DNA from: Litorihabitans aurantiacus
Lineage (GTDB): Bacteria; Actinomycetota; Actinomycetes; Actinomycetales; Beutenbergiaceae
Direction of reading: 5' to 3'
DNA: 64,000 nt
NCBI RefSeq assembly: GCF_030161595.1
Contig: NZ_BSUM01000001.1
Coordinates: 930,001 to 994,000, forward strand
Shown here: positions 1-10,842 of the stretch, piece after piece
Position numbering within the stretch: the first letter of the stretch is position 1
Layout of the letters: each line of letters begins with the position of its first letter
Position numbers and translations under genes: made by a program
Notes under the pieces: model-generated
The model's database searches: none
What the model saw: the letters and a program-made list of their open reading frames with translations, nothing else
What the model was told of the DNA's origin: nothing

Positions 1-1043
1 GGCGAGCTGACCACCGAGCTCGGCACCTCGGTGCTGCTGATCACGCACGACCTGGAGCTGGCCGCCGAGCGGTCGGAGCAGGTCGTGGTCATGCAGCGCG
101 GCCGCGTGGTCGAGCAGGGGGCGTCGACCCGACTCCTGCGTGCGCCCCGCGAGCCGTACACCCGCGCCCTGGTCGCCGCGTCGCCCACCATGCGCAGCAC
201 CCCTCTCGTCGAGGGATCCGTCCCCGACACCGCCAGCACGCTGCTCGAGGTCCAGCACCTGCGCAAGACCTATCGCCGCGGTCGCGGCCGTGAGGACTTC
301 GTGGCGGTGGAGGACTCCTCGTTCGCGCTGCACCAGGGCGAAACGGTCGCCATCGTGGGGGAGTCCGGCTCGGGGAAGTCGACGACGGCGAGGATGATGC
401 TCGGGCTGGAGCGTCCCGACTCCGGTCGCATCCTCGTGCGCGGCCGAGACCTGACGACGATGCGACGGCACGAGCTGATGGACGTGCGCACCCGGGTGCA
501 GCCCGTGTTCCAGAACCCCTACGGCTCTCTCGACCCGCACCTGAGCGTCATGGCGTGCATCACCGAGCCGCTCGACATCCATCGGGTCGGGAGCCCGCGG
601 AGCCGGCGCGCGCTCGCGACGGAGCTCCTGGAGATGGTGGCGCTCCCGGCCGAGCTCGCGACGCGCCGACCGGCCGCGCTCTCGGGCGGGCAGCGGCAGC
701 GCGTCGCCATCGCCCGGGCGCTCGCGCTGCAGCCGGAGCTCGTGGTGCTCGACGAGGCGGTGTCGGCGCTCGACGTCGTGGTGCAGAAGCAGATCCTCGA
801 GCTCCTCGTGCGGCTCCAGCGCGAGCTCGGCCTGAGCTACCTCTTCATCAGTCACGACCTCGCCGCCGTCCGGCTCGTGGCCCACCAGGTCCTCGTGATG
901 CAGCGCGGCCGCATCGTCGAGCGCGGGACACCGGCCGAGATCTTCGACGCCCCCGGGATCCCTACACGCGTGAGCTGCTGGCTGCGCTGCCCGCCGCCGA
1001 GGCGGCCGCGCCGGACGAGGCGGACCAGGCCCTCCACGTCTGA
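1..1043 (+). CDS. ABC transporter ATP-binding protein, peptide/nickel type, two fused ATPase domains (5' end missing, apparent frameshift)
   Basis: ATPase of an oligopeptide/dipeptide/nickel-type importer; the C-terminal part of a protein with two fused ATPase domains. The window opens inside the first domain (its H-loop reads LLITHDLEL). The second domain is complete: Walker A GESGSGKST, signature LSGGQRQR, Walker B LVVLDE, H-loop LFISHDL. The residue after the catalytic Glu region is Ala (DEAVSALDV) where family members usually have Pro. The frame breaks at the C5 run 950-954; adding one C restores the usual ending (DPYTRELLAALPAA) and a stop at 1043. Without it the frame runs wrongly to 1140. 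The permease and binding-protein genes must lie upstream, outside the window. Family assignment is secure; substrate is unknown. Confidence 0.88.
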
Positions 1044-1063
1044 GCGAGGGCGGTCCGGCCCGC

Positions 1064-1122
1064 GCCGCGACGCACCGGAACCTTCCGCGCCCGCACCCCT
1101 GGCGCGGGCGGTGCGTCGCGGC
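1064..1122 (+). terminator. Long nested hairpin between the ABC gene and the WXG100-fusion gene
   Basis: Outer arms GCCGCGACGCACCG (1064-1077) and its exact complement (1109-1122) enclose a second perfect stem, CCGCGCC (1085-1091) with GGCGCGG (1101-1107). There is no T-run, which is common for high-GC terminators. It probably ends the ABC operon, but it finishes only 14 bases before the next ATG, so an effect on translation of that gene is also possible. Confidence 0.6.
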
Positions 1123-1136
1123 GCAGGATCGGCGCC

Positions 1137-2147
1137 ATGACGACCTTCAGCGGCGCCGACGTCCAGCTCCTGCGCGATCTGGCCGGGGCGATGAGCACCG
1201 GTGGTGACGAGATCGACGGCGTGCGCGCCCGGCTCGGCGCCGCCGTCCCGGCCCTCGCCTGGAGCGGACGCGACCAGCAGCGGTTCGCGCAGGACTGGGC
1301 CGGCACCTTCGACCCGGCCCTCGCCGGCGTGGTCGGCGCTCTGCGCGGCGCGTCGCAGACGGCTCAGGCCGAGGCGGAGGACCAGGACGTCGCCTCGAGC
1401 GCCGGGGGCGCCGGGGGAAGCGGCGGCGGGGGTGGCGCGGGTGGGGCCACGACCGGCGCGGCGGCGATCGGCGGCGACGTCGGCGCGTCGTCAGGCTCGT
1501 CGTCGGGCGCCACCACCGCGGCAGCGGGCACGACCGCCGCGTCACCGACCACGGACCGCTACGGCCACCCCACCGGCGACCTCTCCGCCCGCTACGAGTC
1601 GCGCGGCGACGTCGCCACCGTCTCGACGGGCAGGAACGACCCCGGCGGCATCTCCTACGGCACCCACCAGCTCGCCACCAACCGGGGCACGCCGGAGCAG
1701 TTCGTGGCGTGGTCGCGCGAGCACTATCCCGCCGCGCACGAGGAGCTGCAGGGCCTGACCCCGGGGACCCCGGCGTTCGCCGACGCGTGGCGCTCGGTCG
1801 CCGCCGCCGACGCCGAGGGCTTCGGCCACGCCCAGCACGATTTCATCGCGGAGCACCACTTCCGCCCCGGCGTCGACAAGATCGCCCAGCGCCTGCCCGG
1901 CTTCACGCTCGAGGGCCGTGACCCTGTGATCGCGGACGTCGTGTGGTCCTCCGCGGTGCAGCACGGCCCCACGGGTGCGGGTCGGATCTTCGCCGAGGGC
2001 ACCGCCGGCCAGGACGTCGGCGCGATGAGCGACGCCGACCTCGTCCGGGCGGTCTACGCCGAGCGCATCCGCCGGTTCCCGAACCTGTCGCCGCGCTTCC
2101 GCGACGAGCAGGCCGACGCACTGGCTCAGCTCGGCGTCACGCCCTGA
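1137..2147 (+). CDS. WXG100-like N-terminus fused to a VgrG3-C-like (muramidase/chitosanase-fold) domain; candidate type VII-secreted hydrolase
   Basis: 336 residues in three parts. Residues 1-87 are a helical, ESAT-6/WXG100-like region with the WSG turn at 42-44 and no signal peptide. Residues 88-139 are a Gly/Ala/Ser/Thr-rich linker. Residues 140-336 resemble the VgrG-3 C-terminal hydrolase domain: an ARYESRGD stretch with candidate catalytic Glu154, then NDPGGISYGTHQLA with candidate acidic Asp168. Known members of that fold cut peptidoglycan or related glycans. The architecture suggests export by an ESX/type VII system and action on cell wall. No EccC-type ATPase, partner WXG100 gene or immunity gene is seen nearby, so target and route are inferred. 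A CAGGAT element seven bases before the ATG suggests a leaderless or near-leaderless mRNA. The 3' end overlaps the convergent SnoaL-like gene by 22 bases. Confidence 0.7.
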   Translation: MTTFSGADVQLLRDLAGAMSTGGDEIDGVRARLGAAVPALAWSGRDQQRFAQDWAGTFDPALAGVVGALRGASQTAQAEAEDQDVASSAGGAGGSGGGGGAGGATTGAAAIGGDVGASSGSSSGATTAAAGTTAASPTTDRYGHPTGDLSARYESRGDVATVSTGRNDPGGISYGTHQLATNRGTPEQFVAWSREHYPAAHEELQGLTPGTPAFADAWRSVAAADAEGFGHAQHDFIAEHHFRPGVDKIAQRLPGFTLEGRDPVIADVVWSSAVQHGPTGAGRIFAEGTAGQDVGAMSDADLVRAVYAERIRRFPNLSPRFRDEQADALAQLGVTP

Positions 2148-3145
2148 CGCGCCCGCTGCGCCTCGATCTGCGCCAGGACTGCGATCTCGTCGAAGATGCG
2201 GTACTCGCGCCGCACCCGGCCGCCCTCCAGCTCGTACTGGGACACGCCCAGCACCTCCACGCGCTCGCCGCGCGGCGTGCCGTAGACGGGCAGTCCGGAG
2301 TAGGTGCCGCGCAGCTGCCACATCACCGAGGCGCGCAGGCCGCGGTCCGGGCTGCGGTGCACCGCGATGTCGCGCACGTTCACCTCCGCGTCGGGGAACG
2401 GCGCGAGCAGCTCCATCAGGTCGCCGCGCACGCCGTCGAGCCGCGTGACCGTGCGGTTGCGTGAGGTGTGCACGATGCAGTCGCGCGAGTAGAAGTCGGG
2501 GACGCGGTCGAAGCGGCGTTCGCGTACGACGTCGGACCACAGGGACGCGACGAACGTCGCCTCCTCGCGGTGGGTCGCGGGGCGCGGGCCGCTGTCGCCC
2601 TCGAGCACCGGGTCGGCGGGCGCCGGGCGTCCGAAGATGCCGCCCGCGCCGAGCGGCGACAGGTCGACCGGAGCCGCGATCGCGACGGCGGACGGGTCGT
2701 GGCCCAGGCCCTCGACGACGGCCCACTCGTCGCGCACGACCCACTCCTCGGTGACCATGGCGTCCTCGACCAGGCACACCGGGAGGTTGCGCGAGACGGC
2801 GGCCCGCCCGGTCGTGGGCCCGTAGGCCCACGGACCGTGCTGGGCCCCCGTGTGCAGCACCCGGTGGTGGGAGACGAAGCTGGAGGGTCCGCGCGACTCC
2901 CACACGACGTCCTCACCCACGCCGATGCGGTGCAGGAAGGCCGCCTTCTTCGCGAGCGAGCCGCGGATGACGCCCTCGACGCCGACACCGACGCCGGAGG
3001 CCGTGCGCACGGGGAGGTCCGCCGCGTACATCCCGGCGATGTCGCCGATCGCACCGTCGGCCCAGATGCGGTCCGTCCAGTCGAGGATGTACTCCTCGAC
3101 GCTCGGGTAGGGGGCGTAGGACGCGGGCGACAGCGGATCGGACAC
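2126..3145 (-). CDS. SnoaL-like / NTF2-fold protein with two tandem domains
   Basis: 339 residues with two NTF2/SnoaL-like halves (about 10-150 and 195-335), the second containing the polyketide-cyclase-like stretch SRDCIVHTSRNRTVTRLDGV. Such domains act as small-molecule cyclases, isomerases or hydrolases; no substrate can be assigned. The GTG at 3145 is chosen because GAGGAG lies five to six bases upstream; a longer reading to 3235 has no ribosome site and runs through the operator. The gene is divergent from the sugar-transport operon and shares its control region, including a LacI-type site at 3173-3185, so it is probably co-regulated and may act on the imported compound. Confidence 0.6.
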   Translation of the reverse strand: MSDPLSPASYAPYPSVEEYILDWTDRIWADGAIGDIAGMYAADLPVRTASGVGVGVEGVIRGSLAKKAAFLHRIGVGEDVVWESRGPSSFVSHHRVLHTGAQHGPWAYGPTTGRAAVSRNLPVCLVEDAMVTEEWVVRDEWAVVEGLGHDPSAVAIAAPVDLSPLGAGGIFGRPAPADPVLEGDSGPRPATHREEATFVASLWSDVVRERRFDRVPDFYSRDCIVHTSRNRTVTRLDGVRGDLMELLAPFPDAEVNVRDIAVHRSPDRGLRASVMWQLRGTYSGLPVYGTPRGERVEVLGVSQYELEGGRVRREYRIFDEIAVLAQIEAQRARQGVTPS

Positions 3146-3172
3146 GGTTCTCCTCGGTAGGCGTCCAGCCAA

Positions 3173-3185
3173 TGTATACGGATAC
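3173..3185. promoter_or_regulatory. Putative LacI-family operator A (SnoaL-like gene side)
   Basis: TGTATACGGATAC is a near-palindrome with the central CG typical of LacI-family operators. It lies about 28 bases upstream of the divergent gene's start, over its likely -10 region. It matches the site at 3262-3274 in 11 of 13 positions (TGTATACGKATAM). Confidence 0.6.
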
Positions 3186-3261
3186 CCGAGATGCCCACTG
3201 AGGTAGCAGCGGGGTTTTACACGAGCGCAACACAACAGCCCTCGGCGGTAGCACTACAGCG

Positions 3262-3274
3262 TGTATACGTATAA
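3262..3274. promoter_or_regulatory. Putative LacI-family operator B (transport operon side)
   Basis: TGTATACGTATAA contains the perfect palindrome TATACGTATA (3264-3273) with a CG centre. It lies 47 bases before the solute-binding protein start and overlaps TATAAC, a possible -10 element. The obvious candidate regulator is the LacI protein encoded at 6491-7488 in the same operon. Confidence 0.65.
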
Positions 3275-3320
3275 CCAGCCGTGATAGCCACGGCGTCCCG
3301 TCGACCACGAGGAGCCCTCG

Positions 3321-4664
3321 ATGTCACGCCCCGCACGCATCGCCCGTCAGTCCCGCAGGAGGGTGTCGGCGACCGCCGTCCTCGCCCTCGCCGGCACCCT
3401 CGGCCTGGCCGCGTGCGGTGCCGGCGCCGACGTGGCCGGCGCCGGCGTCGAGTGCGACGTCGACCTGCCGCAGGAGACGACCGTCGTGAACCTGCTGTCC
3501 TACACCAGCCCCGCGACCGACCCGTTCGCCGACGCGATCGTCAACGGCTGCACCACGGGCACGCTGCGCGTGGACGCCCCCGAGACCGACTTCGCCGGGC
3601 AGAACCAGCGCGCCGTGCAGTCCATGTCGAGCGCGAACCCGAGCTACGACCTCATCGAGGTCTACGGCACCGTCTACCCGCTCTACGCGGAGCGCGGCTG
3701 GATCGCGCCGCTCGACGACCTCATCGCGGACCGCGGCGACGACCTCGGCCTCGACGACATCGACCCCGCGCTGCTCGAGTCGCTCTCCTACAACGGTCAG
3801 CAGGTCGGGATCCCCACGTTCTGGGGGCCGATCATCCTCGTCTACCGCGAGGACGTCTTCACCGATCTCGGCCTCGAGGTGCCGACGACCTTCGAGGAGA
3901 TGTTCGCCGCCGCCGAGACGATCCGCGCCGAGACCGACATGGCGAACCCGCTCGCGCTGCCCATGGCCACGGCCGGTGGCGTCGCGACCGTCTACAACCA
4001 GCTCCTCGGATCGCTCGGCGGTCACTGGTTCGAGGACGGTGCCGCCGTCCCGACGCTGGACTCGCCCGAGTCGGTCGCGGCGCTCGAGGCGCTGCGCGAC
4101 ACCTACGGCAACATGAGCTCCGAGTCGATCTCCTGGGCCTCGCCCGAGGTCGTCACCCAGCTGCAGACCGGGCAGGCAGCGATGTCGATGCTCTTCGCCG
4201 GCCGGGTCTCCGCACTCCTGGAGGAGCGTCAGACCGAGCACTTCGACGACTTCGCCTTCGCCGTCCCGCCGGCCGTGGTCGAGGGTGGCACCCCCGCCAC
4301 CAGCCTGTCGGTCGACGGCCTGGCGATCGCGTCGAACTCGGCCGTGGACGAGGACCTGCTGTTCGACCTGATCGCCGTGGCCACGGGCCCCGAGGCCGCC
4401 GAGGCGGCCTCGGCGGTGACGATCCCCGCGCGGACCGCGCAGGCCCAGGCCGCCGAGCTGCCCTTCGAGCCCGCCGCGCGCGAGGTGCTCGAGAGCGAGC
4501 GGCCCAACGGCCTGCCGCTGGTGCCGTGGATGTCGGACGTCTTCGCCGTCGCCGCCCCGATCCTCAACGAGGTGCTGTCGGGCACCGTCGAGCCCGCCGA
4601 CGCCGCCGTGCAGCTGCAGGCGGCCGCCGAGCAGGCGATCGCCCAGGCCGGCTTCGCCCCCTGA
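3321..4664 (+). CDS. Extracellular solute-binding lipoprotein of a carbohydrate ABC importer (family 1)
   Basis: 447-residue binding protein. The N-terminus has a twin-basic start, a hydrophobic stretch and a lipobox (LGLAAC, Cys32), so it is anchored outside the membrane. The mature part has the family 1 fold, for example GIPTFWGPIILVYREDVF and the YNQLLGSLGGHW region. It captures a sugar or oligosaccharide for the two permeases downstream; the ligand is not deducible. ATG 3321 has ACGAGGAG upstream. It is the first gene of the operon under operator B. A strong hairpin follows its stop, as is common where the binding protein is made in excess. Confidence 0.9.
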   Translation: MSRPARIARQSRRRVSATAVLALAGTLGLAACGAGADVAGAGVECDVDLPQETTVVNLLSYTSPATDPFADAIVNGCTTGTLRVDAPETDFAGQNQRAVQSMSSANPSYDLIEVYGTVYPLYAERGWIAPLDDLIADRGDDLGLDDIDPALLESLSYNGQQVGIPTFWGPIILVYREDVFTDLGLEVPTTFEEMFAAAETIRAETDMANPLALPMATAGGVATVYNQLLGSLGGHWFEDGAAVPTLDSPESVAALEALRDTYGNMSSESISWASPEVVTQLQTGQAAMSMLFAGRVSALLEERQTEHFDDFAFAVPPAVVEGGTPATSLSVDGLAIASNSAVDEDLLFDLIAVATGPEAAEAASAVTIPARTAQAQAAELPFEPAAREVLESERPNGLPLVPWMSDVFAVAAPILNEVLSGTVEPADAAVQLQAAAEQAIAQAGFAP

Positions 4665-4670
4665 CGGCGA

Positions 4671-4706
4671 GCTCCCGTCCCGGCGGCGTGCCGTCGGGAC
4701 GGGAGC
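4671..4706 (+). terminator. Intra-operon hairpin after the solute-binding protein gene
   Basis: Perfect 12-base arms GCTCCCGTCCCG (4671-4682) and CGGGACGGGAGC (4695-4706) with a short loop sit seven bases after the stop and before the first permease gene. There is no T-run. The likely role is 3' stabilisation of the upstream message or partial termination, giving more binding protein than permease. Confidence 0.7.
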
Positions 4707-4751
4707 GGATTCCGCCGCCCCACCCGCACCACCGACAGAACGGAGCGCGAC

Positions 4752-5615
4752 GTGCGCCGTCGGCAGTTCCTGCTCTTCTCCGCACCCGCCGTCCTGCTGA
4801 TGGCCGGGCTGCTCATCGTCCCCCTCGTCATGACGCTCGTCTGGAGCTTCCAGAACGTGCCGCTCGGATCGGCCGGCACCTTCAACGGCGGGGCCAACTT
4901 CGCCGAGGTGCTGGGCAACCCGCGCTTCCGCAGCGCGGCCACCTTCACCGTCGTGTTCACCGTGATCCTCACCAGCGTCAAGATCGTGGTCGGGTACGGG
5001 ATCGCGCTGATGCTGAACCGGCTGCGCCGCGGTCGGATGGTGGTGCTCGCGCTCCTGATGGCCTCCTACGTGGTGCCCACCGTCGTCGGGGCCCTGAACT
5101 TCTCCTGGCTGTTCAACGACATCTTCGGCGGCGTGGTCAACCAGATCCTCGCCGTCGTCGGCATCGAGGTCGGATGGCTGTCGGAGACCGGCCCCGCGCG
5201 CGTCCTGCTCGGGCTGCACGCGCTGTGGCACGAGGTCCCGTTCGTCATCCTCGTGCTGCTGGCCGGCCTGCAGACCCTGCCGGAGGAGCCGCTCGAGGCC
5301 GCGCAGCTCGACGGCGCGAACTGGTGGCAGCGCCAGCGCTACGTCGTGATGCCGCTTCTCGGCCGCCTGTTCTCGTTCGTCGTGCTCATCACGATCATGG
5401 ACAGCCTCAAGATCTTCGACTCGATCCAGATCATCACGCCCGCCGCGAGCACGCTGGGCACCGAGTCGCTCATGACGTTCGTCTACCAGACTGCGCTCTC
5501 GGAGTCCTACCGCCTCGGCCTCGCCAGCGCCGTCAACGTCCTGTTCATCGTGCTGACGATCGCGCTGCTCGTGCCGTTCCTGCGCCACACCTGGAAGGAG
5601 TCGCGAGGACTGTGA
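4752..5615 (+). CDS. Carbohydrate ABC transporter permease (MalF/LacF type)
   Basis: 287-residue inner-membrane subunit with about six transmembrane helices. The EAA loop that docks the ATPase reads EEPLEAAQLDGANWWQRQRYVVMPLL. The GTG start is preceded by a purine-rich GGAGCG. It pairs with the next permease, whose GTG start overlaps this stop. No ATPase gene is present in the operon; actinobacterial sugar importers often share one MsiK-type ATPase encoded elsewhere. Confidence 0.92.
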   Translation: MRRRQFLLFSAPAVLLMAGLLIVPLVMTLVWSFQNVPLGSAGTFNGGANFAEVLGNPRFRSAATFTVVFTVILTSVKIVVGYGIALMLNRLRRGRMVVLALLMASYVVPTVVGALNFSWLFNDIFGGVVNQILAVVGIEVGWLSETGPARVLLGLHALWHEVPFVILVLLAGLQTLPEEPLEAAQLDGANWWQRQRYVVMPLLGRLFSFVVLITIMDSLKIFDSIQIITPAASTLGTESLMTFVYQTALSESYRLGLASAVNVLFIVLTIALLVPFLRHTWKESRGL

Positions 5616-6494
5616 CCAGCCCCGCCACCACCCCGTCCGACGCCCGCCGTCTCGCCCGACGCCGCCGCGACCGCCGCGAGCGAGCCATCACCGGTTCGGC
5701 CGCCCTCACGCTGGGCGCCATCGTCGTGCTCGCGCTGAGTCCCTTCGTCTGGGCGCTCCTGACGGCGATCAAGCCGTTCCGGGACGCGTTCCGCAACCCC
5801 CGGTGTGGGCCTTCACCCCCAGCTCGACGCCGTCTCCGACCTCTGGCGCGGCACGCTGTTCGCCTCCGTGCTCGGCAACACCCTGGTCATCGCGGTCGTG
5901 ACGGTCGTGGTGGCGCTCGCCGTCGGGGCCCCGGCCGCCTACGCCTTCTCGCGCTACGCCGGGCTGATCGGGCCGATCATCCTCATCATCGCCGTCGTGA
6001 TGCGGACCATCCCGCGCTTCGCCGTCGTGCTGCCGTTCTACGAGATCTCCCAGGCGCTCGGCATCTTCGACACGCGGATCGCCCTCATCGCGGCGCTCGT
6101 CGCGCTCAACATGCCGTTCACCCTGCTCCTGCTCATCGGGTTCTTCCGAGACATCCCGGTGGAGCTCGACGAGGCGGCGATGATCGACGGCTGCAGTCGC
6201 CTGGGGGCCTTCACCCGTGTCATCCTTCCGATCATGGGCCCGGGCCTCGTGACCGCCGGCGTCTTCACCTTCCTCATCGCGTTCCAGGAGTACCTCGTGG
6301 CGCTGACGCTCACCCGCACGCAGGCGCTGACGATCCCCGTCTTCCTCGCTGCGCAGCGCGGGGCCGACGACGTCTCGACGTACCAGACGCTCGCTGCGGC
6401 CAGCGTGCTGCTGGTGATCCCGGTCATCCTCATCGCCGTGTTCGCCCGCAAGTACCTGGTCGCCGGCCTCGGGGGCGGTGCGGTCAAGGGATGA
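5612..6494 (+). CDS. Carbohydrate ABC transporter permease (MalG type), two apparent frameshifts
   Basis: Second permease, 294 residues once repaired. The start is GTG 5612, overlapping the previous stop. The N-terminal frame (VTSPATTPSDARRLARRRRD, then a first membrane helix) breaks at the C5 run 5797-5801 and again at C5 5816-5820. Adding one C to each gives FRNPPVWAFTPQLDAVSDLW and joins the two halves. The EAA loop reads ELDEAAMIDGCSRLGAFTRVILP. The end overlaps the LacI ATG by four bases (ATGA), so translation is coupled. With the deletions taken literally, no working permease would be made, although the rest of the operon looks intact. Confidence 0.88.
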
Positions 6495-7488
6495 GCCCGC
6501 GGATCACGAGCCACGACGTCGCGCGCGAGATCGGCGTCTCGCAGGCGACCGTCTCGCGCGCGCTGCGCGGCGACCCGAAGATCACCCCGGCGACGGTGCG
6601 GCGCGTGCGCGAGGCCGCCGAGCGCCTCGGGTACGTCCCGAGCCACCTGGGGCGGAGCCTGAGCAGCCGCTCGACCGGCAACGTCGCGGTGGTCGCCGAG
6701 CTCGGCAACCTGACCTATCCGGACACGCTGCCGGTCATGCACGACGAGCTCGAGCAGCACGGCTACCGCACCCTGCTCGTGGCGGCCCAGGAGGGCCGCG
6801 AGCTCGACCACGCGCTGCTGTTCGACGGGTCGGTCGACGGCGTCGTGCTCACCACGTCCCGGCTCACCTCGGAGTTGCCCGCGCGGCTGCAGGAGCGCGG
6901 GGTGCCGTTCGTCTTCCTCAACCGGGTCGCGCGCGGCGTGCAGGCCGACACCGTGGTGGCCGACAACGCCGGCGGGGGCGGGCCGCAGCCCGGCTGCTCC
7001 TGGGGGAGGGGCACCGCCGCGTCGCGATGCTCGCCGGGCCCACCGACATGAGCAGCGCTGCGGCACGCGAGCGTGCCTTCACCGCCGAGCTGCGGGAGGC
7101 CGGTCTCGACGCCGTCGACCGGCCGGTCGTGCGTCACGGCCTCACGCACGCCGACGGCGGTCGCGGCTGGGCCCAGCTGATGGCGCTGCGGGAGCGGCCG
7201 ACCGCGGTCTTCTGCACGAGCGACGCCGTCGCCGTCGGTCTGCTGAACGCGTGCCACGAACAGGGCGTCGCGCCACCCGCGGTGGTCGGGTTCGACAACT
7301 CGCCCGTCTCGAGCTGGTCGACGTTCGCCCTGACGACCGTGGACACCCACCTGTCGACGATGGCCCGCACCGCCTCGGCGATGCTCGTGCGCCGCCTGGC
7401 CGAGCTCGCCGACGGGCACGACGCCCCGGCACGCCGCACCGTGGTGCCCACCGAGCTCGTCGTGCGCCGATCGCATGTCGTCGCATGA
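6491..7488 (+). CDS. LacI-family transcriptional regulator (apparent frameshift)
   Basis: 332 residues after repair. The N-terminal helix-turn-helix (ITSHDVAREIGVSQATVSRALRG) and hinge are typical, followed by a periplasmic-binding-protein-like effector domain ending ...TELVVRRSHVVA. The frame breaks at the G5 run 6974-6978; one extra G gives DNAGGGRAAARLLLGEGHRRVAMLAG. It sits inside the transport operon and probably represses it and itself through the CG-centred palindromes at 3173-3185 and 3262-3274, with the imported sugar as inducer (inference). Confidence 0.9.
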
Positions 7489-8915
7489 GACCGGCCACCT
7501 GCACGAGCACGGGCCGGGGGTGCGCCGGCGCGACCTGATCCTGCTCGGGACGGTGGTCGTGCTCATCATGGCGACCGTCTCCGTCGCGAACCTCGCCGTC
7601 CCCGACCTGGCGAACAGCGACCTCGCGCCCCGCGCGGTGGAGCTGACCTGGTTCGTCAACGCCTACGTGATCGCCTTCGCGTGCCTCCTGCTGCCCGGCG
7701 AGATGCTCGGGCACCGATTCGGGGAGGAACGGGTGCTGCTGGCCGGGCTCGGCCTGGTCGCGGTGGGCGGTCTGCTCGCCCTCGTCGCGGACGCGATGCC
7801 GCTCCTGGTGGCCTCGCGCGCCGTGGCCGGGGTCGGGGCCGGGCTCGCGCTCCCGCAGACACTGTCGATCTTGCTGATCCGCGCGCGGCCGGCGCAGCAC
7901 GCCGGTGTCGTCGCGACCTGGACGGCCGCCACGAGCGTGGCCGGCGTCGTCGGCAACGGCCTGGGCGGCGCCGCCATCTCGCTGCTGGGGTGGCGCGCCG
8001 CCGTCGTCGCCACCCTGCCGCTCGCGCTGGTCTGCCTGCTCGGCGTGGTCCTCGTGACCGGGGTGCGTCGCCCGCCCGACCCCGCGGTGCGGTTCGACGC
8101 CCGGGGGCCGGCCTCGTCGTCGTCGTCGCGGTGGGTCTGCTCGTGGCGGTGGTGCAGGGGCCGCACCTGCTGGACCGCGCGTGGCTGCTCGCGGTCCCGC
8201 TCCTGGCGGCGCTCGGCGCGGCGCGCACCCTGTCGCTGCGCTCGCGGCGGGTCGAGCAGCCGCTGCTCGAGGAGTCGGTGCTGGCCTCGCCGGCCGTCCG
8301 TGGGAGCGCCGGGGGGATCGTGGCGACGTTCGTCGCGCTGTTCACCGTGTTCTCGCTGAACGCCCACCTGGTGCAGACCGTGCGGGGGAGAGCGCCGCCG
8401 TCGCGGGACTCGCGCTCGTACCGGTGTCGGTGACGATGCTCGCCGTGACGTGGCTCAGCCTGCCGCTGCTGCGACGGTTCGGCACCGGGCGGGTGGTGAC
8501 GGGTGGTCTGCTCGTCACCGCGCTCGGGCTCGGCGCGCTCGCCGCGGCCGTGTCCGGGCCGGCGTGGGCCTACGTGCTCGCGCTCGTCGTCGTCGGTGCC
8601 GGTGCAGGTCTGTGCTCCTCGCCGCTGTCGACGCTGCTCACGCGCGTGCACCGCGAGCGGACCGGGCGATCGGGGGCGGGCGTCAACAGCACGCTGCGCG
8701 AGCTGGCCTCGGCGGGCGGCGTGGGGCTCGCGGGTCTCGCCCTCGCGGTGGCCGCGCACGGCGACGGCGCGCCCCGGCCCGAGGAGATCGTCGCGGCCGC
8801 ACGCGGGGTCTTCGCCTCGGTCGGGGCGGTGCTGCTGGTGGCCGCGGGCGTGGTGGCGGTGCCCCGGCGGCGCGGGCTCAGCCCGCGTTCCACCCGCTCG
8901 TCGCGGCGAAGGTGA
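7475..8915 (+). CDS. MFS transporter, DHA2 (drug efflux) type, two apparent frameshifts
   Basis: 480 residues after repair. The start lies inside the end of the LacI gene, so it is probably the last gene of that operon. Early helices contain the DHA2-like TWFVNAYVIAFACLLLPGEMLGHRFG. Frame breaks fall at G5 runs 8103-8107 and 8384-8388; restoring one G in each joins three reading frames into one protein of about 14 membrane helices. The likely role is proton-driven export of a drug or metabolite. The 3' end overlaps the convergent PBP gene by 38 bases. Confidence 0.83.
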
Positions 8916-10842
8916 GGACGTCGGCGATGATCGGGCCCGCCGTCGCGGTGCCGTAGTCGCCGACCTCCACCAGGACTGCGACGGCGAGGTCACCCTGGTA
9001 GGCGATCATCCACGCGTGGGTCTGCGGCGGGTCGTCCGTGCCGAACTGCGCGGTGCCGGACTTCGCGCCCACGCCGCCGCCCGGGACGGACTGCAGGAAC
9101 GTGGAGGAGCCTGACGCGACGACGGCGCCCATGAGGTCCTGGAGCATCGCGGCCTCCTGCTCGCCCAGCGGCGTCGCGGGCGCGTCCGGCGTCGCGGCGC
9201 CCTCGATCTGCACCAGCGTCGGCGTGACGGTCCGCCCGGCGGCGACCGAGGCGGCGACCCCGGCCATCGCGAGCGGCGAGGCGAGCACGTCGCCCTGCCC
9301 GATGAGGTCGGCGGCGTGGGTCGTTCCCGTCGCCTCCGTAGGGACCGAGCCGGAGAAGTAGCCGAACGGCCACGCCTGCCCCTCGGGCATCGCCGCCGTG
9401 ACGCCGAGGCTCGCCGCGGCGTCCGCGACGTCGGCCGCGCTCACCGTCTGCGCCTGCGAGATGAGGGCCGTGTTGCACGACTGGCCGATCGCCTCGCGCA
9501 GCGTGATCGTGCCGAGCGAGGACTCCGGATAGCCCGGGAAGTTGCGGAACTCGCGGCCGTCGACCGTCGTGGTGGGCGTGCACTCCACGGGGGAGTCGGG
9601 GGTGAGGCCCGCACGCAGCAGCGCGAGCGCGGTCACCACCTTGAACGTGGAGCCGGGCGCGTACTGCCCGACCGTCGCGGTGCTGAGGCCGGCGCTCCCG
9701 GGCCCGCTCGCCGCCACGAGCACGGACCCGGTCGAGGCCTCGAGCGCGACGACGGCGCTCGCGGACTCCACGCCCGCCAGCCGCTCCTCGGCGAAGGTCT
9801 GCAGGGCCGGATCGAGGGTGGTGACGAGGTCGACGCCCTCGACGGCGTCCCTCCCGCCGAGCAGGAAGTTCCCTGCCGCCCCGTTGGTCAGCACGACCTG
9901 CGTGGCGGGCGTGCCGCGCAGCTGCGCGTCGTAGGTGCGCTGGAGGCCGGAGGTGCCGACGACGTCGCCCGGCTCGACCTGCCCCTGCGACTCCTCGACG
10001 ATCTCCGCGGTGGCCTCACCCACGCCGCCGAGGATGGCGCGCGCGAAACCCGCGGTGGGGGCGAGCGGCATCGTGTCCTCCTGGAGCAGCACGCCCTCCA
10101 TGCCGCGCAGCCCCTGCGTGTTGTAGCGCTCCTCGTCGGCCTGCCGGATGGTGAGGGCGATCGGGAAGGCGGCGGCTCCGGCGTCGAGCACGCGCTGCAC
10201 GTAGCCGGCCTGGTCGTCGAGCTCGAGGGCGGCGGCAAGCGCCTCCGCGGCCGGCTGCCAGCGGTCCTCGGTGAGGTTGGCCTTGTCGATGCCCACGCGG
10301 TAGACGGTCCGCTCGATGACGAGCGGCTGACCGCCTCGGCCGTCGACGTCGCCGCGGGCGGCCTGCGTGCGCTCGACCGTGACGACCGAGTCCGCCGTCG
10401 CCTCGGGGTGCAGGAGCGCGGGGCTCCAGGTCGCGCGCCAGGCGGGCTGCGCGTCGTCGTCGCCCTCGGCGGGGTCGGTCAGGGTGAGGGTCGTCGTGGT
10501 CGCGAGCTCGAGCGGGTCCACGCCCTCGCCGAGATCGAAGGACCAGGCGAGCTCGACGTCGCGCGTGGCGGGGCCGTCGCCGCTCTCCTCGCCGTCGGCG
10601 GGCTCGACGACGGTGGCCGCGACCTCGCGCGGGAACGCGGCGAGGTCGCCCAGGAGTGTGGTGAGCTGCTCGGTGGCGACGTCGGGGTCGTCGACCGGGG
10701 CGCCGTCGAACACGCCGTCCGTGAGATCGGCCGCGAGCGCCGTCGCCGCGGGCCCGGGCTCCGGATCGGGCTCGGGGGTGCACGCCGCCAGCGGCACGAT
10801 CAGCGCGAGGACGACGGCGGGCGCGAGGCGGCGGTGCGGCAT
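8878..10842 (-). CDS. Lipoprotein penicillin-binding protein with MecA-N-like domain (PbpA/PBP2a-like transpeptidase)
   Basis: 654 residues, intact. A lipobox (LIVPLAAC, Cys21) anchors it outside the membrane. Next come an NTF2-like MecA N-terminal domain (about 30-150), a PBP dimerisation domain and the transpeptidase. Active-site motifs are complete: S398-T-F-K, S455-C-N and K594-S-G-T. It cross-links peptidoglycan stem peptides. MecA-N-bearing PBPs include low-affinity, beta-lactam-insensitive enzymes, but sequence alone does not show resistance. The start is supported by TAGGCT six bases before the ATG, implying a leaderless message. Confidence 0.9.
   Translation of the reverse strand: MPHRRLAPAVVLALIVPLAACTPEPDPEPGPAATALAADLTDGVFDGAPVDDPDVATEQLTTLLGDLAAFPREVAATVVEPADGEESGDGPATRDVELAWSFDLGEGVDPLELATTTTLTLTDPAEGDDDAQPAWRATWSPALLHPEATADSVVTVERTQAARGDVDGRGGQPLVIERTVYRVGIDKANLTEDRWQPAAEALAAALELDDQAGYVQRVLDAGAAAFPIALTIRQADEERYNTQGLRGMEGVLLQEDTMPLAPTAGFARAILGGVGEATAEIVEESQGQVEPGDVVGTSGLQRTYDAQLRGTPATQVVLTNGAAGNFLLGGRDAVEGVDLVTTLDPALQTFAEERLAGVESASAVVALEASTGSVLVAASGPGSAGLSTATVGQYAPGSTFKVVTALALLRAGLTPDSPVECTPTTTVDGREFRNFPGYPESSLGTITLREAIGQSCNTALISQAQTVSAADVADAAASLGVTAAMPEGQAWPFGYFSGSVPTEATGTTHAADLIGQGDVLASPLAMAGVAASVAAGRTVTPTLVQIEGAATPDAPATPLGEQEAAMLQDLMGAVVASGSSTFLQSVPGGGVGAKSGTAQFGTDDPPQTHAWMIAYQGDLAVAVLVEVGDYGTATAGPIIADVLTFAATSGWNAG

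Follow-up and report, generated by a model that had tools for sequence, protein, structure and literature searches.

A WXG100-headed VgrG3-C-type hydrolase of Litorihabitans aurantiacus as a candidate cargo of an FHA-EssC-like locus

Introduction

How would the product of a lone gene, to all appearances an enzyme that cuts cell walls, get out of the cell, and whose wall would it cut? The question is raised by an open reading frame near the left end of a 64,000-nucleotide stretch of Litorihabitans aurantiacus DNA (contig NZ_BSUM01000001.1, positions 930,001 to 994,000 of the forward strand; hereafter the window). A first-pass annotation, made from the sequence alone, took the predicted protein for a WXG100-like N-terminus with a WSG turn, tied by a flexible Gly/Ser/Ala linker to a VgrG3-C-type hydrolase domain with Glu154 as its likely catalytic residue. 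It called the gene an orphan, with no secretion, partner or immunity gene beside it, and wavered between a housekeeping wall hydrolase and a contact-dependent effector. It expected a helical hairpin over residues 1-87, proposed a search of the genome for EccC/EsxA-like genes, and held that the absence of any ESX system would tell against it.

Results

The gene and its enzyme domain

The features of the gene, in window coordinates, are these:

1137-2147, forward strand: ORF of the WXG-headed VgrG3-C fusion, 336 aa
1137-1400, forward strand: WXG100-like head, residues 1-88, with long helices at 6-40 and 45-88
1260-1268, forward strand: W42-S43-G44, turn between the helices, from the sequence (turn 41-44 in the model)
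1401-1553, forward strand: flexible linker, residues 89-139, rich in Gly/Ala/Ser/Thr, from pLDDT and alignment gaps
1554-2144, forward strand: VgrG3-C / GH46-like glycan hydrolase domain, residues 140-336 (PF21277 match at 147-313)
1596-1598, forward strand: codon of Glu154, predicted catalytic acid, from conservation and alignment with 4noo/4nso
1638-1640, forward strand: codon of Asp168, candidate second catalytic carboxylate, not invariant, from the same two sources

There is little doubt about the family of the C-terminal domain. Residues 147-313 match PF21277 (T6SS_VgrG3-like_C) with an E-value of 1e-40 (140.1 bits, against a cut-off of 27), and PDB entries 4noo and 4nso are matched with E-values of 7.9e-18 and 1.8e-17. 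AlphaFold2 models nearly all of the domain with pLDDT above 91, and VIA-align lays the model on the VgrG3-C structures with Z of 19.2 (4nso) and 18.9 (4noo) at an rmsd of 3.1 over 182-183 residues, as one would want of the hydrolase domain first claimed. These structures share 27-28% identity with the domain. GH46-type chitosanases come next (Z 11.8-15.8 over 183-192 residues, 9-17% identity), followed by pesticin (Z 9.0-9.3).

Glu154 lies in the first helix of the domain and is likely the catalytic acid, to judge from conservation, and so the earlier choice of residue stands. It is E in all 40 rows of an alignment that drew on 38 of 80 viral loci (A4) and in all 10 rows of another (A3), and it is aligned with the Glu of YESAG in 4noo/4nso. 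Asp168, aligned with the Asp of GNGDYGG in the same structures, is D in 35 of the 40 rows and 8 of the 10. The active site of VgrG3, which I take to be E827 and D842, would fall on these two residues by the ranges of the structural alignment.

An ortholog in Serinibacter arcticus K3-2 is 74% identical and keeps the start and both domains; alignment gaps show its linker to be shorter. By the NG86 method, dN/dS is about 0.57 in the head and about 0.31 in the enzyme domain. The flexibility claimed for the linker is borne out by pLDDT values below 50 at residues 94-133. Nowhere in the fusion protein is there a transmembrane-like stretch, nor, even after the second helix, a YxxxD/E motif in its short form (PMC3935865). 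GC and GC3 of head and enzyme have host values, so a foreign base composition of the enzyme domain is ruled out and there is no sign of recent transfer. A PHROGs search returned two families of unknown function. No tRNA lies inside the window.

The WXG100-like head

The expected hairpin is there. Modelled alone by AlphaFold2 (pLDDT 88.1), the head consists of helices 6-40 and 45-88 with the turn A41-W42-S43-G44 between them, and the 12 best rows of its VIA-align search are all WXG100/Esx chains, with Z of 10.1-10.7, which upholds the reading of the N-terminus as WXG100-like. That level of Z is possibly generic for helical hairpins, other hairpins in the same list reaching 9.7 and below, and for this reason sequence kinship with the second locus described below weighs more. 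Curated profiles recognize the head faintly: 16.8 bits against PF06013 (cut-off 27.3) and 21.5 bits, E 2e-4, against TIGR03930 (cut-off 44.85).

Two type VII-type loci in the genome

The gene is an orphan in the sense that no secretion gene adjoins it, not in the sense that the genome has none to offer. The proposed search turned up a canonical EccC, an Esx pair and, elsewhere, a second WXG100 locus, so the absence of an ESX system, on which the annotation might have foundered, is not what the genome presents. The canonical locus, at 2.39-2.41 Mb, has an EccC over cut-off, EccB and EccD Pfam domains and the Esx pair; a canonical EccC over cut-off is found in all 3 genus members searched. The second locus, at about 0.784-0.798 Mb, is 143 kb from the fusion gene:

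about 785.8-798.0 kb of the contig (G000:C1; L019:4783-17001): the conserved run of genes of the second locus
L019:6913-7182: WXG_B, a WXG100 protein 45% identical to the head

Its genes encode WXG_A (91 aa), a long WXG_C, WXG_B (89 aa) and an ATPase with FHA and FtsK/SpoIIIE domains, after which come a large protein, a MoxR-type AAA protein and DUF58 proteins. The ATPase scores 436 bits against EssC (TIGR03928) and 340 bits against EccCa, both under cut-off, and by these scores it resembles EssC more than EccCa. The stand-alone WXG_A and WXG_B likewise fail to reach the curated WXG100 cut-offs. WXG_A, WXG_B and the ATPase match recur in each of the 3 genus members searched. The large protein has no Pfam match in the window genome; its counterpart in G528, a genome of another family, has a weak fn3 match. 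The gene order WXG_A, WXG_C, WXG_B, FHA-EssC-like ATPase, FN3-type, MoxR, DUF58 is conserved across two families (L072, L073, L171, L172), with ATPase scores that stay below the EccC and the EssC cut-offs alike.

The window genome has an ATPase frame of 1104 aa; more EccCb-like matches begin at about 791.6 kb in a different frame, and a change of frame is also seen in WXG_C (L019 about 5170-6300; the ATPase near 10690). S. arcticus (L072) has both as whole frames, a WXG_C of 519 aa and an ATPase of 1509 aa. The frame changes would be either sequencing indels or decay. The stretch read at the second locus holds no EccB/EccD-type gene, and secretion by this locus is for that reason something that I infer.

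To which locus does the head belong? Smith-Waterman scores of the head with the WXG100 proteins of its own genome were compared with those of 500 shuffles. With WXG_B the head is 45% identical (score 175, z 30.7); z is 16.7 with WXG_A and 7.0 with the long WXG_C. Against the canonical Esx pair z is 0.6 and 0.2, that is, no pairwise similarity, and four other WXG100 matches of the genome give z from -1.5 to 2.4. Judged by sequence, the nearest kin of the head is a WXG100 protein of the FHA-EssC-like locus, not the canonical Esx pair.

Spread of the fusion

PF21277 carriers number 2 among 39 relatives, 1 in a class sample of 394 (the window genome itself), 3 in an order sample of 396, 2 in a set of 186 from a different family within the order and 17 in a phylum sample of 396, the samples overlapping. 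The carriers found in the class are four genomes of two families: that of the window, G002 of the same genus (with the gene of S. arcticus), G528 and G868. In each of them the enzyme follows a head and a linker, and a head HMM matches all four; two of the matches (L016, L017) are so by construction, and the other two (L157, L162) score 64.5 and 58.6 bits independently. In a tree of 41 rows, which drew on 29 of the 80 viral loci, the four enzyme domains fall into a single clade with support of 96/94. G528 and G868 also carry WXG_A and WXG_B next to the gene of an FHA-EssC-like ATPase (484-485 bits to TIGR03928).

Beyond the class the head is not seen: the HMM matches none of 16 carriers elsewhere in the phylum (flanks of 1.5 kb), none of the 80 viral loci (flanks of 1.5 kb or less) and none of 8 plasmid or phage loci (flanks of 0.3-4 kb). 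Among the 16 carriers outside the class, 9 of the 10 that could be placed have a hydrophobic stretch near the start, as Sec signal peptides do. From such starts it seems that the distant enzyme is exported by Sec in that group, and that the WXG head takes the role here.

Other relatives of the enzyme were met along the way. Distant VgrG3-C-like proteins of another class of the phylum (L174, L177, L179, L184 and others of L174-L189) have signal-peptide-like starts, and several of L174-L189 have a sortase-like C-terminal end. On a Priestia megaterium plasmid (L026, about 2018-4550) an 844-residue frame has a hydrophobic stretch in its N-terminal part and a VgrG3-C-type domain at its end. Phage and viral collections are rich in relatives of the domain (78 records; 542 of 600 candidate stretches). 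A scan of genome contigs with the single protein as query found no relative, and one with two rows found S. arcticus only, with patterns drawn from the head.

Like heads on other cargos

The same kind of head is found in front of other things. Among 23 genomes compared, 11 have a head match and 9 have the WXG_A/WXG_B pair. Two of these 9 (Serinibacter) carry the VgrG3-C fusion, 6 carry a hydrolase-like cargo and none carries both; the sister species G001 has a like head on the hydrolase-like cargo. In three genomes (G011, G010, G005) a third kind of cargo, rich in glycine, also follows a like head beside the WXG_A/WXG_B locus, and similar matches are listed in G012, G014 and G015. Thus a type VII-type head is common to different C-terminal domains, the pattern by which polymorphic toxins are recognized.

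The hydrolase-like cargo is about 300 aa long and conserved (L058-L063, from G012, G005, G010, G014, G015 and G001). It is perhaps an alpha/beta hydrolase, going by a T-H-S-Q-S stretch judged by eye; Pfam has no family for the one such cargo scanned. Like heads on glycine-rich, mostly helical-looking tails are seen at L067:7212-7472 (reverse strand), L068:2048, L069:2107, L054 and L070, the first three adjoining the WXG_A/WXG_B locus. Such tails may lodge in membranes.

The Serinibacter fusion heads group with those of the hydrolase cargo (85/87, not starred), and the head trees keep the two pairs of VgrG3-C heads apart. They are joined in 0% of bootstrap trees with 1 change for the first tree and in 14% for the second, a tree built without five of the six "other" heads, the long WXG_C rows and two near-copies each of WXG_A and WXG_B. 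Yet a single clade of VgrG3-C heads is not rejected on that second tree (p-AU 0.203), so I claim neither one origin of the fusion nor an exchange of heads.

Neighbors of the fusion gene

By sequence reading, the fusion gene stands between an ABC ATPase and a SnoaL-type gene (this one named by Pfam) in the window, and is accompanied by a flavin oxidoreductase and a penicillin-binding protein in S. arcticus, by a methyltransferase and a UspA-like protein in G528, and by PyrR-like and NusB-like proteins in G868. All ORFs of at least 45 aa that lie no more than 4 kb from any of the four fusion genes were compared all against all. Apart from the fusion and its shadow frames nothing recurs between the two families within that distance, and the same holds between the window and S. 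arcticus; the two genomes of the other family, G528 and G868, share upstream genes. No linked immunity or partner gene recurs near the four genes, and the earlier statement that none adjoins the gene, to which the local ORFs also conform, can be extended across families. An immunity gene specific to one lineage, and not conserved, would be compatible with this comparison.

The upstream ABC transporter ATPase gene (window 1-1140) changes frame near 955, its C-terminal continuation lying in an ORF at 555-1043; this too may be an indel error or decay. Downstream, about 6.7 kb (2129-8870) separates the fusion from a PBP-type gene at 8878-10842, and contains the SnoaL-type gene and genes for a solute-binding protein, permeases, a LacI-type regulator and an MFS-type protein. 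In S. arcticus the fusion and the PBP-type gene are 26 bp apart (L023:9633-9659).

Discussion

A modular cargo

I propose that the fusion protein is a glycan hydrolase of modular build, exported as cargo by the FHA-EssC-like system, and that its likeliest use is the lysis of other bacteria's walls. On balance I hold this to be probable, if not by much, given the computed domain content, fold and conserved Glu, the kinship of the head, the repeated architecture, the single clade of enzymes and the several cargos. Export, dimer partner, activity, substrate and target are what I infer from these. The 88-residue hairpin would serve as the export address. The product of the lone gene would most likely form a homodimer or take a WXG100 protein of the second locus as its partner; the FHA-EssC/EccC-like ATPase of that locus, on recognizing the hairpin, would push the protein through the membrane. 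With the disordered linker as a tether, the VgrG3-C/GH46-fold domain could then reach peptidoglycan, where Glu154, as general acid, would cut the glycan strand. The producer would be protected by something unlinked to the gene.

The patchy spread of the fusion and the swapping of cargos favor a cargo over a part of the machine. Against the proposal I count that the head and the stand-alone WXG100 proteins score under curated cut-offs, that YxxxD/E is missing, that 143 kb separate gene and locus, that no linked immunity gene recurs, that the ATPase frame is broken in the protein's own genome and that the head tree does not join the VgrG3-C pairs.

What else might the protein be? It might travel by the same route but work on the producer's own peptidoglycan, making passage, for example, for the machine or its cargo. 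The lack of a recurring immunity gene near the four fusion genes speaks for this, and there is a precedent in EssH of Staphylococcus aureus, like the enzyme proposed here a wall hydrolase tied to a type VII system (type VIIb); PMC13059805 also mentions two NLP/P60 hydrolases with plasmid T7SSa clusters. The precedent is imperfect, since by the same paper EssH, a CHAP enzyme, carries a Sec signal peptide and is no substrate of a type VII system. A part of the machine should follow the machine, but the fusion is present in only 2 of the 9 pair-bearing genomes, and the sister species G001 has the second locus without a VgrG3-C domain. I think a self-directed role unlikely, though it deserves to be kept in mind. 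Less likely again is that the WXG head exports a chitosanase or other glycan hydrolase, of nutritional or antifungal use, whose substrate is not peptidoglycan. The GH46-type folds do come directly after VgrG3-C in the structural ranking, but VgrG3-C is nearer in both Z and identity, and relatives of the domain occur in phage proteins with lysis, tail or endolysin-like annotations, from which wall cutting is to be expected.

The remaining alternatives concern the route. The canonical ESX locus has EccB, EccD, an EccC over cut-off and an Esx pair, its EccC recurs throughout the genus members searched, and the second-locus ATPase is broken in this assembly. But the head does no better than shuffles with the canonical pair, against z of 30.7 and 16.7 with WXG100 proteins of the second locus, and the fusion protein lacks YxxxD/E. 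I therefore drop the canonical ESX as first-choice cognate system and keep it as a rival, an improbable one. It would take most to persuade me that there is no type VII export at all, the hairpin being a dimerization module and the enzyme either reaching the wall only on lysis or being a domesticated phage part. The gene is an orphan and the enzyme's relatives are plentiful in phage and viral collections; even so, none of the 80 viral loci carries the head within the flanks searched, and close stand-alone WXG100 kin of the head adjoin the gene of a type VII-like ATPase.

The proposal of a modular cargo can be carried further, more tentatively. The second locus may be a working, separate type VII machine of Micrococcales, fed by off-site cargo genes that swap their enzymes, with the VgrG3-C fusions among its first-known effectors. 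I regard this as possible but somewhat doubtful, and would say the same of the address such a machine might read, a hairpin of the form G-x-D ... W-x-G ... F-x-x-x-W ... Q-x-x-x-S, and of the suggestion that the fusions are the first of their enzyme family to be exported by a type VII-type route. If it is so, then a single enzyme family is delivered in three ways, by T6SS spikes, by phage tails and by a machine of type VII kind. There would also be candidate cargos for the FHA-EssC-like/WXG100 loci of Micrococcales, which have been little studied and lie beside PFNA-like genes of unknown use. And with no recurring immunity gene, one must ask what spares the producer from a wall hydrolase that it secretes.

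Comparison with known systems

The open-licence literature searched yielded no description of a WXG100-VgrG3-C fusion. The head has the hairpin, the W-x-G at the turn and the full-length structural match of WXG100 proteins and EsxA-like homodimers; it differs from them in being fused to a linker and an enzyme, in scoring under curated cut-offs and in lacking YxxxD/E. A type VII head fused to an enzyme is also what one finds in CpnT of mycobacteria, where both the enzyme and the head are other ones. Mycobacterial PE-LipY, named as a T7SS substrate in PMC3935865, is again such a fusion, with another enzyme and head, and it has YxxxD/E.

With VgrG3-C of Vibrio cholerae, a T6SS spike effector (4noo, 4nso; PF21277), the fusion shares the enzyme fold and the aligned Glu. 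There the domain ends a T6SS spike protein, whereas here, in a Gram-positive organism, it comes after a WXG100-type head. VgrG3 has an immunity protein, TsiV3, according to PMC6099711, and the fusion here has no recurring neighbor gene. The LXG polymorphic toxins TelA-C of Bacillota resemble it in joining a type VII-type head to an exchangeable enzymatic end; PMC5555719 presents Tel and Tip as toxin/immunity pairs. The present case differs in its short, single WXG100-type hairpin, its actinobacterial host, its VgrG3-C enzyme and the want of a recurring immunity gene. As for the second locus, it has in common with the bifidobacterial PFNA cluster the order FN3-type protein, MoxR AAA ATPase, DUF58. 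In the text of the PFNA paper (PMC8430577) WXG and FtsK are absent, whereas here WXG100 genes and an FHA-EssC-like ATPase gene precede the FN3-MoxR-DUF58 genes.
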